NCBI RefSeq assembly: GCF_900167475.1
Contig: NZ_LT796768.1
Span: 1,922,001 to 1,986,000 of the forward strand
Origin: Aeromicrobium choanae
GTDB lineage: Bacteria > Actinomycetota > Actinomycetes > Propionibacteriales > Nocardioidaceae
Length of the DNA stretch: 64,000 nt
Reading direction: 5' to 3'
The first letter of the stretch is position 1; each line of letters begins with the position of its first letter. This document shows positions 4,550 through 11,498 of this stretch, one piece after another. The notes under the pieces are model-generated. The model was not told the origin of the DNA, did not search any database, and saw only the letters and a program-made list of their open reading frames with translations. The position numbers were made by a program, and so were the translations under genes.

Positions 4550-5917
4550 TCAGCCGCGCGCGATGCCCACCATCTCGTCGCGCGGGACGACCTTCTTGCG
4601 CTCGCGCGGGTGGGTGTCGCCCTCGCCGAGGGACGTCTCGTGGGCGTCGAGCTTCTCCCAGCCCTCCCACGTGGTGTACTCCACGCCGCGGCTGTCGAGG
4701 TGGCGGTCGAAGGCCTCACGGTCGGCGAACTCCGGTGCGGGCAGCTTCGGCAGGTCCTCGACGAGCATCTTGACCGTCTGCGCCGCATCGGACTTCGTGT
4801 GGCCGATCAGGCCGACGGGGCCGCGCTTGATCCAGCCGGTGGCGTAGACGCCCTCGATCGGCGAGCCGTCGATGTCGAGTACGTGGCCGCCGTCGTTGGG
4901 CAGCACGCCGCCGTTCGCGTCGAACGGCAGGCCCGGCAGGTTGTCGGAGTAGTAGCCGATCGCGCGGTACACGGCCTGGACGGGCCAGTCCTTGAACTCG
5001 CCGGTGCCGCGCACGTTCCCGGTGCCGTCGAGCTCGGTGATCTCGGTGCGCAGGCCCACGACGCGACCGTCCTCGCCGAGGATCTCGACCGGGCTCTGGC
5101 AGAAGTGGATGTGGATGCGGTGGGGTGCGCCCGACGGCTCCTTGGCCAGGTAGTCGCCCAGCACCTTCACGACGAGCTTCTGGCTCTTGGCGGCGGCGAG
5201 CGCCTCCATCGAGCCGTGGTCGAACTCGTAGCCCTCGGGGTGCACGACCACGTCGATCGTGGGGGAGTGGCTCAGCTCGCGCAGCTCCATCGGCGTGAAC
5301 TTCACCTGGGCCGGGCCGCGCCGCGCGAACACGTGCACGTCGGTGGTGGCGTTCTTCTTGAGGCCCTCGTAGACGTTGTCGGGGATCTCGGTGACGAGCA
5401 GCTCCTCGGCCGTCTTGGCCAGGATCCGCGCGACGTCGAGGCCCACGTTGCCGACGCCGAGGACGGCGACCTGCTTGGCGTGGGGCTGGAAGTCCCACTC
5501 GCGCGGGGCGTCGGGGTGGCCGTCGTACCAGTAGACGAAGTCGGCGGCACCGTACGAGCCGTCGAGGTCGACGCCGGGGATCGTGAGCTCACGGTCGCGG
5601 CGCGCGCCGGTGGCGAACACGACGGCGTCGTAGAACCCCTTGAGATCCTCGAGCTTGATGTCGGTGCCGAAGTTGACGTTGCCGAAGAAGCGGATGTCCT
5701 CGTTCGCCATCACGCGCTTGAGCGCCTTGATGATCTCCTTGATCCGCGGGTGGTCGGGCGCCACGCCGTAGCGGATCAGGCCGAACGGGGTCGGGTCGCG
5801 GTCGAGGATGTCGACGGTCACGTCGAGGTCCTCGGTCTTGGTGAGGATGTCGGCCGCGTACACGCCAGCGGGGCCGGCGCCGACGACGGCGACGCGCACC
5901 TTCCTGTCCACAGTCAT
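4550..5917 (-). CDS. fprA: NADPH:ferredoxin reductase, FprA family
   Basis: A 455-residue cytoplasmic flavoenzyme of the adrenodoxin-reductase/FprA family, which passes electrons from NADPH to ferredoxin. The FAD-binding VAVVGAGPAGVYAA is at residues 9-22. DRDPTPFGLIRYGVAPDHP is the family signature, and VAVLGVGNVGLDVAR near residue 170 is the NADP site. The ATGWIKRGPVGLIGHTKSDA block is the conserved C-terminal FAD contact. Full length for the family. The DUF952 gene ends 9 bp upstream. The start is supported by a TAGGCT -10 placed 6 nt before the ATG. Confidence 0.92.
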   Translation of the reverse strand: MTVDRKVRVAVVGAGPAGVYAADILTKTEDLDVTVDILDRDPTPFGLIRYGVAPDHPRIKEIIKALKRVMANEDIRFFGNVNFGTDIKLEDLKGFYDAVVFATGARRDRELTIPGVDLDGSYGAADFVYWYDGHPDAPREWDFQPHAKQVAVLGVGNVGLDVARILAKTAEELLVTEIPDNVYEGLKKNATTDVHVFARRGPAQVKFTPMELRELSHSPTIDVVVHPEGYEFDHGSMEALAAAKSQKLVVKVLGDYLAKEPSGAPHRIHIHFCQSPVEILGEDGRVVGLRTEITELDGTGNVRGTGEFKDWPVQAVYRAIGYYSDNLPGLPFDANGGVLPNDGGHVLDIDGSPIEGVYATGWIKRGPVGLIGHTKSDAAQTVKMLVEDLPKLPAPEFADREAFDRHLDSRGVEYTTWEGWEKLDAHETSLGEGDTHPRERKKVVPRDEMVGIARG

Positions 5918-6323: not shown

Positions 6324-6785
6324 ATGAGCCTCGACGTGCAGATCACCTTCGACGCCCACGACACCCGGGTCATGGCCGAGTTCTGGGCGGCCGCGCTCGG
6401 CTACGAGGTGCCCGGACCGCCCGACGCCCAACTCGAGCCCGGCGACGATCCGTGGGCCGCGTGGGACGACTTCCTCGAGCGGGTGGGCGTGCCCGAGGGG
6501 CAGCGCCGCGCCAAGGCGGCCATCGAGGACCCCGAGGGCTCGCGCCCCCGGGTGTTCTTCCAGCAGGTGCCCGAGGACAAGGTCGCCAAGAACCGTGTCC
6601 ACCTCGACGTCCGCGCCGCGCCGGGCCTGCAGGGCGACGAGCGGATGACGGCGCTCGAGGCCGCCGCCGAGCGGCTCGTGGCGCTGGGGGCCGAGCGCGT
6701 GCGGCGATTCGAGCCCGAGCCGCCGATGGAGGCGGGCTTCCTCGTCATGCGCGATCCCGAGGGCAACGAGTTCTGCCTCGACTGA
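6324..6785 (+). CDS. VOC-family (glyoxalase-like) protein
   Basis: A 153-residue protein of the glyoxalase-like type common in actinobacteria. Residues 3-30 (VQITFDAHDTRVMAEFWAAAL in part) form the first beta-alpha-beta unit. FFQQVPEDKVAKNRVHLDV gives the metal-site His in the middle, and the C-terminal DPEGNEFCLD holds the second acidic ligand. Many relatives carry the same bulged PEDKxxKNRVHLD block; their substrates are unknown. ATG 6324 follows GGAG at the right distance. The gene stands alone and is divergent from the DUF952/fprA pair. Confidence 0.8.
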   Translation: MSLDVQITFDAHDTRVMAEFWAAALGYEVPGPPDAQLEPGDDPWAAWDDFLERVGVPEGQRRAKAAIEDPEGSRPRVFFQQVPEDKVAKNRVHLDVRAAPGLQGDERMTALEAAAERLVALGAERVRRFEPEPPMEAGFLVMRDPEGNEFCLD

Positions 6786-6864
6786 GGTCGCGAGTCCACC
6801 TGAGAAGTCCCTGTGGGTCGTCCACGGGAGCCCCCCGGAGGTAGTGATCCGCCGAGGGTTCGCC

Positions 6865-6870
6865 TACGTT
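6865..6870 (+). promoter_or_regulatory. putative -10 of the flavin electron-transfer operon
   Basis: TACGTT occurs in the 138-bp gap before the FMN-lipoprotein gene. It predicts a start near 6877 and a leader of about 47 nt that carries AGGAG before the ATG at 6924. The rest of the gap shows no clear operator. Confidence 0.35.
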
Positions 6871-6923
6871 GGATGCACGACGGTTGAACGAGAAACCACT
6901 TCGTGTCCCGACCCAGGAGCTCC

Positions 6924-7403
6924 ATGAACCCGACGAAGCGACGCACGTACGCCGCCCTCGCCGCCTCCACCGCCCTGCTCACCCTCGCCGCCTGTGGCAG
7001 CGACGCCGCCGAGGACGACGCGTCCTCCAGCAGCAAGACGCCGTCGGCCACCACGCCGTCCGCATCCGAGCCCGCGGCATCCGCCCCGGCCGCCGGCGGA
7101 GCGTTCACGGCCGGCGAGTACGAGGCCACCGGCTCCTACACGACGCCCGACGGCCAGACGCAGTCGATCGACGTCGAGGTCACCCTCGCCGCCGACGGCA
7201 CCATCACCGAGCTCGACGCCGACGGCAACGCCGAGGGTGGCAACTCCGAGCAGTTCCAGGGCAAGTTCGAGAGCGGCATCGACGCCCAGGTCGAGGGCCG
7301 CAAGATCACCGATCTCGACGTCGACAAGGTGTCCGGCTCGTCGCTGACCAGCGGCGGCTTCAACGACGCCATCGACCAGATCATCGGCCAGGCGCAGGCC
7401 TGA
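6924..7403 (+). CDS. FMN-binding-domain lipoprotein
   Basis: A 159-residue exported lipoprotein with lipobox LAAC (Cys24). A Ser/Thr/Ala/Pro-rich tether of about 35 residues leads to a C-terminal FMN_bind domain (about 60-159). DKVSGSSLTSGGFNDAIDQI is the flavinylation region. The usual S-G-A-T-x-T-S reads S137-G-S-S140-L-T-S, so the residue that would carry FMN is Ser140, not Thr. Such domains hold covalently bound FMN outside the membrane and relay electrons. The ApbE transferase and a membrane reductase follow directly, which fits a single chain. ATG 6924 has AGGAG 5 nt before it. Confidence 0.85.
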   Translation: MNPTKRRTYAALAASTALLTLAACGSDAAEDDASSSSKTPSATTPSASEPAASAPAAGGAFTAGEYEATGSYTTPDGQTQSIDVEVTLAADGTITELDADGNAEGGNSEQFQGKFESGIDAQVEGRKITDLDVDKVSGSSLTSGGFNDAIDQIIGQAQA

Positions 7404-7407
7404 CCCC

Positions 7408-8241
7408 ATGAGCTCCGACTGGCGTTTCGACGCCATCGGAACCGCGTGGTCGATCGGGACCCCCGACCCGATCGGCCCCGGACTACGAACCGCGATCACG
7501 GCCCGCATCGACTCGTTCGATCGGACGTGGTCGCGGTTCCGCGTCGGTTCGGCGGCGAACGCCCTGCGCACCTCGCGCGAGGCCGACCTCGGCCCCGACG
7601 CCCCCGCCATCCTGGCCGTCTACGACCGCCTGTTCGCGCTGACCTCGGGCGCCGTCAGTCCGCTCGTGGGCGGGGCGCTGGAGCAGCTCGGCTACGGCGC
7701 CGGCTACACCCTCACGCCGTCCGGTGAGCCCGTGCGCGTCCCCTCGTGGACCGACTGCGAGCTCGTCGGCACGGTGCTGCACGTCCCGGGCCCCGTCGTC
7801 CTCGACATCGGCGCCGTCGGCAAGGGCTGGCTCGCCGGTGAGATCGCTGCGATGATCGACCAGCCGTGCGTCGTCGACGCGAGCGGTGACCTGGTGAACC
7901 GGTCGGGAGGGGTGCTGCGCGTGGCACTGGAGGACCCCGACGACGCCGAGCTGGCGATCGCCGTGGTGGAGGTGCCCGACGGCGACGCGATCTGCGGATC
8001 GGCCAGCAACCGGCGCCGCTGGTCCGACGACGTGCACCACGTGCTCGACGCCCGATCCGGTACTCCGACCCGCAACGTCGTGGCGGCCTGGGCCGGCGGC
8101 CCCGACGCCGCCTGGGCCGACGGGCTCGCCACCGCCGCCTTCTTCGCCTCCGACCTGTCCGGCACCGGGCACTGGTGGGCGGCCCTCGACCGTGACCGGC
8201 GACTCGTGGCCCACGGGCTGCCCGGAGAGGTGTTCGCATGA
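7408..8241 (+). CDS. apbE: FAD:protein FMN transferase (ApbE family)
   Basis: A 277-residue ApbE-family enzyme, which moves FMN from FAD to a Ser/Thr of a target protein. Seen motifs: RIDSFDRTWSRFR near the start, DIGAVGKGWLAGEI in the middle (family form D-x-G-x-x-K-G), DASGD, HHVLDARSGTPTRN, and the C-terminal ADGLATAAFF. It begins 5 nt after its probable substrate gene and overlaps the next gene by ATGA. No signal peptide or lipobox is visible, although many ApbE proteins are exported. This enzyme therefore looks cytoplasmic, or is exported by an unseen route. Confidence 0.88.
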   Translation: MSSDWRFDAIGTAWSIGTPDPIGPGLRTAITARIDSFDRTWSRFRVGSAANALRTSREADLGPDAPAILAVYDRLFALTSGAVSPLVGGALEQLGYGAGYTLTPSGEPVRVPSWTDCELVGTVLHVPGPVVLDIGAVGKGWLAGEIAAMIDQPCVVDASGDLVNRSGGVLRVALEDPDDAELAIAVVEVPDGDAICGSASNRRRWSDDVHHVLDARSGTPTRNVVAAWAGGPDAAWADGLATAAFFASDLSGTGHWWAALDRDRRLVAHGLPGEVFA

Positions 8242-9719
8242 CGTTCCTGGATCGCCAGCTGGGCCGGTTCACGATGTACCGGCTCGTCACCGTCGTGCTG
8301 CTCGCGCTGGCCGCCGTCGCCGTGGTCCAGTCGGCCCTCGGCGTGCTCGACTCCGACATCTTCCCCGTCGACGCGCTGCTGCTCACCCTGGCCGTGATGG
8401 TGGCGACGTCGGTGCTCGTGAACCTCGTGGTCGGACGGCTCGTCGGGGCCCGGCCGCACCTCGAGTCGTCGGTCGTGACCGCCCTGATCCTGTGGTTCCT
8501 CTACTGGCCCTCCACCCACGCCGAGCAGCTCGGCTGGCTCGCGCTGGTGGCCGCCCTCGCCCAGGTGTCGAAGTACCTGATCACGTGGCGCGGGCGTCAC
8601 CTCGTGAACCCGGCCGCCGCGGGCGTCGTGCTGTCGGTCCTGCTCGGCTGGGTCACGGGCTGGCCGGTGCCGTTCACGGGCTGGTGGGTCGCCAGCGAGT
8701 CGTTGTTCTGGTTCGTCCTGGCCGGTGCGCTCCTGGTGCTGCACCGCACGCGCCGGCTCGCCCTCGGCGCCGTGTTCGCCGTCGTCGCCGTCGCCGCCAC
8801 CGTGTGGTGGCAGGTCGGCATCGGCGCGGGGCTCGAGGAGGCGATCCGGTTCACGCTCTACTCGACGCCCATCGTCTTCTTCGGCGGGTTCATGCTCAGC
8901 GAGCCGCTGACCCTGCCGCCGCGCCGGACGCAGCAGCTCGGCGTCGCGGCCCTCGCCGGCGTCCTCTTCACGTGGCCGCTGCTCACCTCGCGGATCTTCG
9001 GTGAGCCCTGGACGACCGAGCCGTTCACGAGCACGTACGAGCTGACCCTCGTCGTCACGGGCCTCGTGGCGTTCGCGCTGCGGCAGGGCTCGCGGACCCT
9101 GACCCTGCGCGAGCGCCGGCGCCTCGGGGACGACGTCGTGGAGTACGTCTTCGCCGCCGATCGTCCCCTGCGGTTCGTCCCGGGCCAGTATGTCGAGCTC
9201 GACGTGCCCCACGGCCGCGTCGACACCCGGGGTCGCCGCCGGATGTTCAGCGTCGTGTCCGCCCCGGGCTCCGAGGTCGTCGTCGCGACACGGCATCCCG
9301 AGCCCGGCTCCTCGTACAAGCGCGCCCTGGCCGCCGCGTCGCCGGGCGACCGGATGCGGGTCACGGCGGTCCACGGCGACTTCGTGTGGCCGTCGACCGG
9401 TCCGATCCTGCTGGTCGGCGCGGGGATCGGCGTCACACCGTTCCTGAGCCAGCTCGCCGCCCACCCGGGCCGCGACGTGGTCGTCGTCCTGGGCGAGCGC
9501 GAGGACCAGCCCTACGTGGCCGAGCTCGAGGCCTCGGGTGCCCGCGTCGTGCGGATGCCCGTCGAGGAGGTCGGCGGGGCCGCCATCTCCGACCTCGTGC
9601 CCGACCTGTCGGATCGCACCGCCCTGGTGTCGGGTCGGCCCGACTTCGTCGACGAGGTCGCCCGGAGCCTGCGAGGGCGCGTGCGGCGGGTCAAGCGCGA
9701 CCACTTCCTGGGCTACTGA
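8238..9719 (+). CDS. NqrB/RnfD-like membrane domain fused to FAD/NAD(P)H reductase
   Basis: A 493-residue two-part protein. Residues 1-275 form about 8-9 membrane helices of the NqrB/RnfD type: HLVNPAAAG is typical, and FFGGFMLSEPLTLPP matches the RnfD-like F-M-x-[ST]-[DE]-P-x-T-x-P loop. Residues 280-493 form a ferredoxin-reductase module: FVPGQYVEL and RRMFSVVSAPG bind FAD, and LLVGAGIGVTPF binds the nicotinamide nucleotide. The architecture would take electrons from NAD(P)H and pass them across the membrane to the flavinylated lipoprotein. The last acceptor is not encoded here. Coupled to apbE by an ATGA overlap. Confidence 0.85.
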   Translation: MTFLDRQLGRFTMYRLVTVVLLALAAVAVVQSALGVLDSDIFPVDALLLTLAVMVATSVLVNLVVGRLVGARPHLESSVVTALILWFLYWPSTHAEQLGWLALVAALAQVSKYLITWRGRHLVNPAAAGVVLSVLLGWVTGWPVPFTGWWVASESLFWFVLAGALLVLHRTRRLALGAVFAVVAVAATVWWQVGIGAGLEEAIRFTLYSTPIVFFGGFMLSEPLTLPPRRTQQLGVAALAGVLFTWPLLTSRIFGEPWTTEPFTSTYELTLVVTGLVAFALRQGSRTLTLRERRRLGDDVVEYVFAADRPLRFVPGQYVELDVPHGRVDTRGRRRMFSVVSAPGSEVVVATRHPEPGSSYKRALAAASPGDRMRVTAVHGDFVWPSTGPILLVGAGIGVTPFLSQLAAHPGRDVVVVLGEREDQPYVAELEASGARVVRMPVEEVGGAAISDLVPDLSDRTALVSGRPDFVDEVARSLRGRVRRVKRDHFLGY

Positions 9720-9773
9720 GCCCGGCCGCCCTGCGGGGTTGTCAGGGACCCGGAGCGGGCGCACGATCGAAGG

Positions 9774-10190
9774 ATGAGGATCACCGCGACGGTGCACCAC
9801 GAGCCGGGTCGTCACGAGGTGACCGTCGCGACCGACGGACGCGAGACCGAGCTCGAACTGCCGGCGCGCGACGACGGTCCGGGCTCGGCCGTGAGCGGCG
9901 GCGAGCTGCTCGCCGCGGCGCTCGCGACGTGCTTCCTCGACGACCTCCACCGCGAGGCCGGGAGGCGCGGCATCGAGATCGGGGCCGTGGAGGTGGTGGT
10001 CGAGTCCGAGTACGGGGACCGCGGCGTGCCCGCCCGCGACCTGACCTACGAGGTGCGCGTGCGGTCCCGGGCGGACGCGGGGCTGGTGGCCGACCTCGCG
10101 CGGGAGACGGACCTCCTCGCCGAGGTCCACGCCACCCTCCGCGCGGCGTGCGACGTGGAGCTGCGCAGCGTGCAGATCAGCGCCCCCTGA
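9774..10190 (+). CDS. OsmC-family protein
   Basis: A 138-residue OsmC/Ohr-superfamily protein. The family reduces hydroperoxides with two cysteines; here Cys53 (LAAALATCF) and Cys126 (LRAACDVEL) are at the expected places, with the glycine-rich SGGEL before the first helix. It lacks the extra features that separate Ohr from OsmC, so I leave it at family level. The gene stands alone between the flavin operon and the glycosyltransferase. CACGAT 6 nt before the ATG hints at a leaderless transcript, and the GAAGG touching the ATG is too close to be a ribosome site. Confidence 0.85.
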   Translation: MRITATVHHEPGRHEVTVATDGRETELELPARDDGPGSAVSGGELLAAALATCFLDDLHREAGRRGIEIGAVEVVVESEYGDRGVPARDLTYEVRVRSRADAGLVADLARETDLLAEVHATLRAACDVELRSVQISAP

Positions 10191-10247
10191 GCCGACCGCC
10201 GTCCGACCCGGCACAATGGGTTACCCACGAGTACCCGAGGAGGCCGC

Positions 10248-11498
10248 GTGCGGATTGCACTGTTGTCCTACCGCAGCAAGCAGCACAGCGGTGGGCAGGG
10301 CGTCTACGTGCGCAACCTCAGCGCCGGACTGGCCGATCTCGGGCACGAGGTGACGATCTTCTCCGGCCAGCCGTACCCGGAGGACCTGCACCCCGAGGTG
10401 CGCCTCGAGAAGGTGCCGAGCCTCGACCTCTACCGTGACGACGACCCGTTCCGGACGCCGAGGCTGCGCGAGTTCCGCGACTGGATCGACGTCCTCGAGT
10501 ACCTGCAGATGCTCACGGCGGCGTTCCCCGAGCCGCTGACGTTCAGCCTCCGCGCGCGCCGGCTCGACCTGTCGGGCTTCGACGTCGTGCACGACAACCA
10601 GTCGCTCGGGTTCGGGCTGCTGTTGATCAACCGGCGCCAGCCGTTCCTGGCCACGATCCACCACCCGATCAGCCGCGACCGCGCGCTCGACATCGCCGCC
10701 GCTCCGCTGCGCAAGCAGGTCACGACGCGCCGCTGGTACGCGTTCGTGCGGATGCAGGCGTTCGTGGCGCGACGGATCCGCACCATCCTGGGCGTCTCGT
10801 CGGCGTCCGCCGGCGACACCGTGGCCGACTTCCGGCTGCGCCCCGAGCAGATGACCGTCGTGCCGCTCGGCGTCGACACCGACCTGTTCAGCCCCTCGGA
10901 CGAGCGGGTGCCCGGCCGGCTCGTCGTGGTCGCCAGCGCCGACTCGCCGCTGAAGGGCCTCTCGCACTTCCTGGACGCGGCCGCCAAGCTCAGCACGGAT
11001 CGCGACATCGACGTGCAGCTGGTGTCGAACCTCGACCCCGACGGCACCGCGTACCAGCGGATCCACCGCGGCGACCTCGCCGGCACCGTCACGGTGCACA
11101 GCGGCATCTCCGACGAGGAGCTGGCGGCGCTGATCTCGTCGGCGCAGGTCATGGTCGTGCCCTCCCTGTACGAGGGCTTCAGCCTGCCCGCGGTCGAGGC
11201 GATGTCCTGCGGCACGCCGCTCGTGGCCAGTGCCGCCGGCGCGCTGCCCGAGGTGGTGGGCGACGCGGGGGTGCTCGTCGAGCCGGGCGACGTCGAGCAG
11301 CTCGTCACGCAGATCGGCCGGCTGCTGGACGACCCCGCCGAGCGCGAGCGGCTCTCCTCGGTGGCCCGTCGCCGGGCGATCGAGCGCTTCAGCTGGCTCG
11401 CGGTGGCCCGCGCCACCGCACAGGCCTATGAGAAGGTGATCGGCGATCACCGTGCTCGCCAGTCCCGGGACGGAAGGAACCCCCATGCTGACCGTTGA
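10248..11498 (+). CDS. glycosyltransferase family 4
   Basis: A 416-residue GT-B glycosyltransferase. The N-terminal domain begins with the glycine-rich SGGQGVYVRNLSAGL acceptor loop. The C-terminal domain starts near VVPLGVDTDLF and holds the donor-site motif SLYEGFSLPAVEAMSCGTP, whose E-x7-E pattern marks GT4 enzymes. It is cytoplasmic; sugar and acceptor are unknown. GTG 10248 follows CGAGGAGG. The following methyltransferase starts inside its last 14 bp. A similar trio with a methyltransferase and a toroid protein suggests modification of one surface or storage molecule. Confidence 0.88.
   Translation: MRIALLSYRSKQHSGGQGVYVRNLSAGLADLGHEVTIFSGQPYPEDLHPEVRLEKVPSLDLYRDDDPFRTPRLREFRDWIDVLEYLQMLTAAFPEPLTFSLRARRLDLSGFDVVHDNQSLGFGLLLINRRQPFLATIHHPISRDRALDIAAAPLRKQVTTRRWYAFVRMQAFVARRIRTILGVSSASAGDTVADFRLRPEQMTVVPLGVDTDLFSPSDERVPGRLVVVASADSPLKGLSHFLDAAAKLSTDRDIDVQLVSNLDPDGTAYQRIHRGDLAGTVTVHSGISDEELAALISSAQVMVVPSLYEGFSLPAVEAMSCGTPLVASAAGALPEVVGDAGVLVEPGDVEQLVTQIGRLLDDPAERERLSSVARRRAIERFSWLAVARATAQAYEKVIGDHRARQSRDGRNPHADR

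Follow-up and report, generated by a model that had tools for sequence, protein, structure and literature searches.

The window analysed here, a stretch of 64,000 nucleotides from Aeromicrobium choanae, contains three closely packed genes, a very small set that could link NAD(P)H of the cytosol with a flavin held covalently on the outer side. The set is near-universal in the genus Aeromicrobium. The operon family to which it belongs also bears on the question if ApbE, the enzyme that attaches the flavin, always operates outside the cell with exported FAD or if a covalent flavin can be loaded in the cytosol and then exported. The three genes occupy positions 6924-9719, as an earlier note on this DNA had given them, and are all encoded on the + strand in the same direction. 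The operon has the following parts:

6924..7403, + strand: gene of an FMN_bind lipoprotein (NqrC/RnfG-like), 159 aa, assigned by PF04205 and by an AGGAG resembling a ribosome-binding site before ATG 6924.
7408..8241, + strand: ApbE (FAD:protein FMN transferase), 277 aa, assigned by PF02424.
8238..9719, + strand: gene of the fusion protein, 493 aa, assigned by fold and relatives.
8238..9104, + strand: membrane half of the fusion protein, with an RnfD/NqrB-like fold that lacks the covalent-FMN motif, assigned by fold match and relatives.
9087..9719, + strand: C-terminal half of the fusion protein, a cytosolic FNR-type FAD/NAD(P)H reductase, assigned by NCBIfam and PDB matches and by fold.

The lipoprotein reading frame opens at GTG 6903, and it is the ATG at 6924 that is preceded by the AGGAG sequence; positions 6924-7403 are therefore the likely lipoprotein gene. 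Gene apbE begins 4 nt past the lipoprotein stop codon and its own stop overlaps the start of the fusion gene as ATGA. The lipoprotein matches the FMN_bind family PF04205 (29.8 bits, cut-off 22) and features a signal peptide with the lipobox LAAC, while the second protein matches PF02424 (84.9 bits, cut-off 25.6), in agreement with the FMN_bind lipoprotein and the ApbE named in the earlier note. The latter is the sole ApbE of the genome, in which one FMN_bind protein was detected. This pairing offers a simple test of the site of flavin loading. Positions 6500-10300, scanned with Rfam, contain no match to a riboswitch or any other RNA family.

The third protein had been described as an NqrB/RnfD-like membrane domain fused to an FAD/NAD(P)H reductase, an assignment that is borne out by fold and relatives. 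Pfam gives no match to either half of the window protein, even at E 10, and homology therefore rests on these two sources. Among 43 relatives of the fusion protein, PF00175 is found in 36 and PF03116 in 8 (best E-value 1.3e-8). A profile built from 27 relatives and compared to the PDB identified RnfD (8ahx_D, E 0.0021) as the only match of the membrane half above noise. The C-terminal half matches FNR-type reductases, with E-values of 8.4e-10 for the BenC model and 8.3e-8 for the P450 reductase GcoB. An AlphaFold2 model of the fusion protein derived from 43 sequences (mean pLDDT 91.4, pTM 0.87) was then used for fold comparison. Its reductase half, which dominates the first listing of matches, aligns to NqrF and other FNR-type FAD/NAD domains with Z values of 21-23 (top 23.2). 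RnfD 8ahx_D (Z 22.7, rmsd 3.0 Å over 244 residues) and NqrB 8evu_B (Z 20.7) surfaced with a second-look aligner. The reductase motifs R-R-x-F-S and G-I-G-[IV]-T-P are kept in the 43 relatives apart from single-position changes (F/L, S/T and F/Y). In 42 of the 43, the membrane half does not contain the covalent-flavin motif [ST]GA[ST]; the lone occurrence there (L109, position 53) is at a site that is not conserved, and the match in L072 sits in the reductase half. The membrane half, having lost this motif, is thus likely to carry a non-covalent flavin.

The earlier note proposed to look for the same gene order in other genomes and for the reductase that accompanies it. Species genomes supplied 80 loci, the best 80 among 501 relatives of one collection; 77 of these have the full order FMN_bind-apbE-fusion and the remaining 3 end at contig edges. 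When 6 duplicate genomes are taken out and the window and 13 relatives are added, the same order holds for 85 of 88 related loci, and contig ends break the remaining three. An order so fixed across loci shows that the three-gene set is not due to chance. Among the named hosts are Aeromicrobium, Nocardioides, Tsukamurella, Arthrobacter and relatives, several Microbacteriaceae, Cellulomonas and Nakamurella. The operon spans several actinobacterial families and one Saccharibacteria metagenome-assembled genome.

Within the genus, the fusion protein is found in 46 and ApbE in 47 of 49 Aeromicrobium genomes, while PF04205 has a match in 38; the last number is an undercount, since lipoproteins such as those of G118 and G025 are found only by similarity within the operon family. 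The near-complete genome G575 (98% complete) has no match to the fusion protein, ApbE or FMN_bind. This joint absence and the high counts of the fusion protein and ApbE in the genus speak for a single module. Pairwise identities of the three proteins show a positive, modest correlation (0.58-0.66, without background control) over 84 loci, a set from which duplicates of 6 genomes and the incomplete L121 were removed and which was used also for the lipobox counts given below.

Some loci deviate from the common layout. A longer gap separates the lipoprotein gene from apbE in L043, L044 and L091; in the first two it holds four genes, of which one matches WXG100 proteins weakly. In L223 (genome G443) a stop codon interrupts the fusion gene in its membrane half, while FMN_bind and apbE have uninterrupted reading frames. 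Outside the genus the distribution of the membrane domain is patchy, with 32 of 393 genomes in a class sample in which Aeromicrobium itself is counted. Actinobacterial genomes of other classes (L224-L228) code for NqrB/RnfD-like proteins that were not matched to the three-gene operon. One of them (L227, 8108-9664) has a PF03116 match of 32.2 bits and no FNR match, and adjoins genes for the alpha and beta subunits of an electron-transfer flavoprotein. Proteins of this type possibly represent a different use of the same membrane domain.

No reductase, nor any other gene, travels with the operon. Apart from the three genes themselves, the highest count reached by any gene cluster is 22 of the 80 loci, and clusters at this frequency, whose products were read by eye from sequence starts, look like lineage synteny. 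For the 43 immediate neighbours at 21 loci, the 25 commonest of 78 Pfam families include no redox or metal family that recurs; they are scattered families such as arginyl-tRNA synthetase, GT87 and carbohydrate kinase. A linked terminal reductase was rejected on both grounds. In the window, positions 4550-5917 of the - strand code for a pyridine-nucleotide/FAD oxidoreductase (Pyr_redox_2, FprA-like by eye); such a gene lies close by in 12 of 14 loci from the genus and a near relative, probably by lineage synteny.

Because no gene is linked to the operon, the electron acceptor is most likely a small diffusible molecule or a household protein encoded elsewhere. A small acceptor, plausible since no protein acceptor is linked, would fit a ferric or ferric-siderophore reductase serving iron uptake, with the FMN lipoprotein as terminal reductant. 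The presence of the iron transporter VIT1 in 6 of 127 NQR/RNF-like clusters (PMC8238504) goes in the same direction, but iron transport is not represented in the 25 commonest neighbour families at the 21 loci, and such a role appears rather unlikely.

It is highly probable that the three genes encode a self-contained module of the NQR/RNF-like kind for one-way electron transfer across the membrane, from NAD(P)H to the FMN of the lipoprotein outside. The cytosolic FNR-type half would transfer hydride from NADH or NADPH onto FAD, and the RnfD/NqrB-like half would then conduct electrons through the membrane, probably via its non-covalent flavin, to FMN on the lipoprotein at the outer face. ApbE would attach this FMN to a serine in the sequence G-S-S. 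The reduced lipoprotein might finally serve a diffusible or widely shared acceptor encoded elsewhere. The route outlined in the earlier note, which runs from NAD(P)H through the FAD domain and the membrane domain to the lipoprotein flavin, is the same as that proposed in the literature (PMC8238504, PMC11334425), where a one-way path that leads from NAD(P)H to an acceptor outside is likewise a proposal (PMC8238504, PMC10979944). The points against this best explanation are the lack of a Pfam match to either half of the window fusion protein, a departed flavin motif, a less-favoured serine acceptor and an ApbE that lacks a signal peptide.

A covalent flavin on the lipoprotein is part of the route proposed in the earlier note. 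A presumed attachment site is present, D-K-V-S-G-S-S-L-T in the window protein, but the presumed acceptor is a serine in a departed G-S-S motif in place of S-G-A-T. The published substrate motif of ApbE is D-x-x-[S/T]-G-A-[S/T] (PMC12052999). In the operon family, where the motif was read also from an alignment of 13 lipoproteins, the consensus is mostly x-K-V-[A/S]-G-S-S-L-T, and G-S-S-L-T is present in 82 of 85 lipoproteins. Both the acceptor and the residue preceding it are serines in all 78 of the 85 proteins that could be parsed, the latter residue taking the place of the alanine in the published motif; the 7 proteins left unparsed by the motif pattern all carry G-S-S-L-T. The aspartate of the first motif position is found in 15 of the 78 and is retained in the window. 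Serine acceptors are used less well by tested ApbEs (PMC12052999), and the cognate ApbE of the operon has presumably adapted to the altered motif.

The altered motif and its less favoured serine could also mean that FMN binds the lipoprotein only non-covalently, or that the operon runs in reverse with electrons entering the cell. Either reading is improbable in view of the retention of G-S-S-L-T and of the invariable linkage of ApbE to the operon. Furthermore, the distant relative L221 has the same three genes with an FMN_bind protein that retains the canonical S-G-A-T, and its ApbE too has no signal peptide.

Export of the lipoprotein is well supported across the family. A lipobox combined with a hydrophobic segment was recognised by filter in 78 of 84 loci and by eye in five of the other six; the homologue of L120 has a membrane anchor without cysteine. 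The signal peptides look mostly of the Sec type, a Tat-like pattern being present in 2 of the 84, and Tat export of a folded flavoprotein was rejected as a general answer on the latter count.

ApbE has a different organization. The window protein starts directly with its domain (MSSDWRFDAIGTAW) and has no signal peptide. One and the same cut-off (mean hydropathy of at least 1.9 over 12 residues) detects a hydrophobic segment at the N-terminus of 0/85 ApbEs from the operons and of 24/28 from other classes of the phylum; the latter come from a control set of 30 loci, 2 of which were removed since the match lay elsewhere than expected. By the profile alignment, 3 codons lie between the lipoprotein stop and the ApbE domain of the window. 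The spacing does not exceed 40 codons in 82 of 85 operons and is often below 10, leaving in those cases no room for a missed signal. ApbEs of other Actinomycetes systems (L156-L163, L229-L236) likewise have no signal segment (0/8 measured and 0/8 further ones in the genus inspected by eye). Absence of a signal peptide may therefore be a class-wide trait of these enzymes.

In published work, ApbEs serving exported substrates are described as secreted or lipid-anchored outside the cell, with a signal or lipoprotein peptide, and the known cytosolic ApbEs serve cytosolic substrates (PMC12052999). No report of an ApbE without signal peptide combined with an exported substrate in actinobacteria was recognised in open-licence PMC text. 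The extracytoplasmic flavin put forward in the earlier note agrees with export of the lipoprotein, but covalent attachment outside the cell is not to be assumed when the enzyme has no signal peptide. ApbE either acts before export or exits the cell unconventionally.

The first alternative leaves the electron-transfer module unchanged: a cytosolic ApbE would load FMN on the unfolded lipoprotein precursor before export, dispensing with FAD export. Flavinylation before export becomes a testable possibility when an ApbE without signal and an exported lipoprotein substrate are found together with the lack of PF07456, the EetB family that is a component of the FAD exporter (PMC9973259); this S-component marker is absent from 49 of 49 Aeromicrobium genomes. 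The short distance upstream of the ApbE domain and the single ApbE of the genome agree with such loading. ApbE labels co-expressed tags of seven residues in E. coli (PMC12052999), from which it follows that a folded substrate is not required and that pre-export flavinylation is chemically possible. Against it, most signals look Sec-type and Sec would have to let a chain that bears FMN pass, and a different FAD exporter or non-classical ApbE export are alternatives. Loading of the precursor in the cytosol is a serious candidate, at somewhat less than an even chance.

In the second alternative, ApbE would be exported by a non-classical route and act on the outer side, as in other bacteria, where the enzymes with exported substrates are placed (PMC12052999); genes for substrate and enzyme are adjacent here too. 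Neither the operon ApbEs nor the 16 other ApbEs mentioned above have a signal, however, the operon has no exporter gene and PF07456 is not in the genus, making this route doubtful. Flavinylation before export can be tentatively extended to Actinomycetes as a class: their cytosolic ApbEs might flavinylate secreted lipoproteins before or during export, the flavin crossing on the polypeptide without an FAD exporter. If true, extracytosolic flavinylation would have a second topology, which in the operon family uses an attachment motif of its own (G-S-S).

Among known systems, the operon shares with Na+-NQR and Rnf the folds of NqrB/RnfD and of the NqrF-type reductase, and the FMN_bind family of NqrC/RnfG. 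Those complexes contain further Rnf-Nqr membrane subunits (NqrD/E and RnfA/E, PF02508), found in 0 of the 49 genus genomes, that of the window included; a control search for them was positive in 4 of 14 known genomes. The genus therefore has no semicircular Nqr/Rnf complex at its disposal, and a remnant of a full Nqr/Rnf was rejected; unlike Na+-NQR and Rnf, the operon has a single electron path and no pump is expected.

In the flavin-based extracellular electron transfer of Listeria (PplA, FmnB, EetA/EetB) a flavinylated lipoprotein is likewise the outer electron carrier, and the likeness is weak at the level of the PplA model (34 bits for a cut-off of 325). The present system differs by the use of NAD(P)H via an RnfD-like fusion protein, by lack of an EetB-type exporter (PF07456, 0/49) and by its ApbE without signal. 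Fusion of a cytosolic FNR-type domain to a membrane conduit is found also in MsrQ-like and NOX-type flavocytochromes, with SpNOX among the fold matches. NOX-type flavocytochromes have haem-type membrane domains, whereas the membrane half described here aligns to RnfD/NqrB.

The closest resemblance is to the NQR/RNF-like systems defined by these parts in Meheust et al. 2021 (PMC8238504), one of which was modelled by Huang et al. 2024 (PMC10979944, PMC11334425) with the same route as here. Both have an exported FMN-binding protein, ApbE and an NqrB/RnfD-like membrane part with an NAD-binding C-terminal part; in both the covalent flavin site of NqrB/RnfD is lost and no other Nqr/Rnf subunits are found. 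The homology features are all present in the operon: an FMN_bind protein with signal and lipid anchor, a linked ApbE, RnfD-like and NqrF-like halves, and loss of the flavinylated threonine. Differences are the divergence of the window fusion protein, too large for the Pfam models that define the system (0 matches), the serine-containing G-S-S attachment motif and the ApbE without signal peptide, a trait that the passages of those papers on these systems do not discuss. Published systems are reported mainly from Actinobacteria and CPR, with 127 clusters (PMC8238504), compared to 501 relatives in one collection here. The operon belongs, as a divergent representative, to the NQR/RNF-like flavinylation systems, a kind already described.
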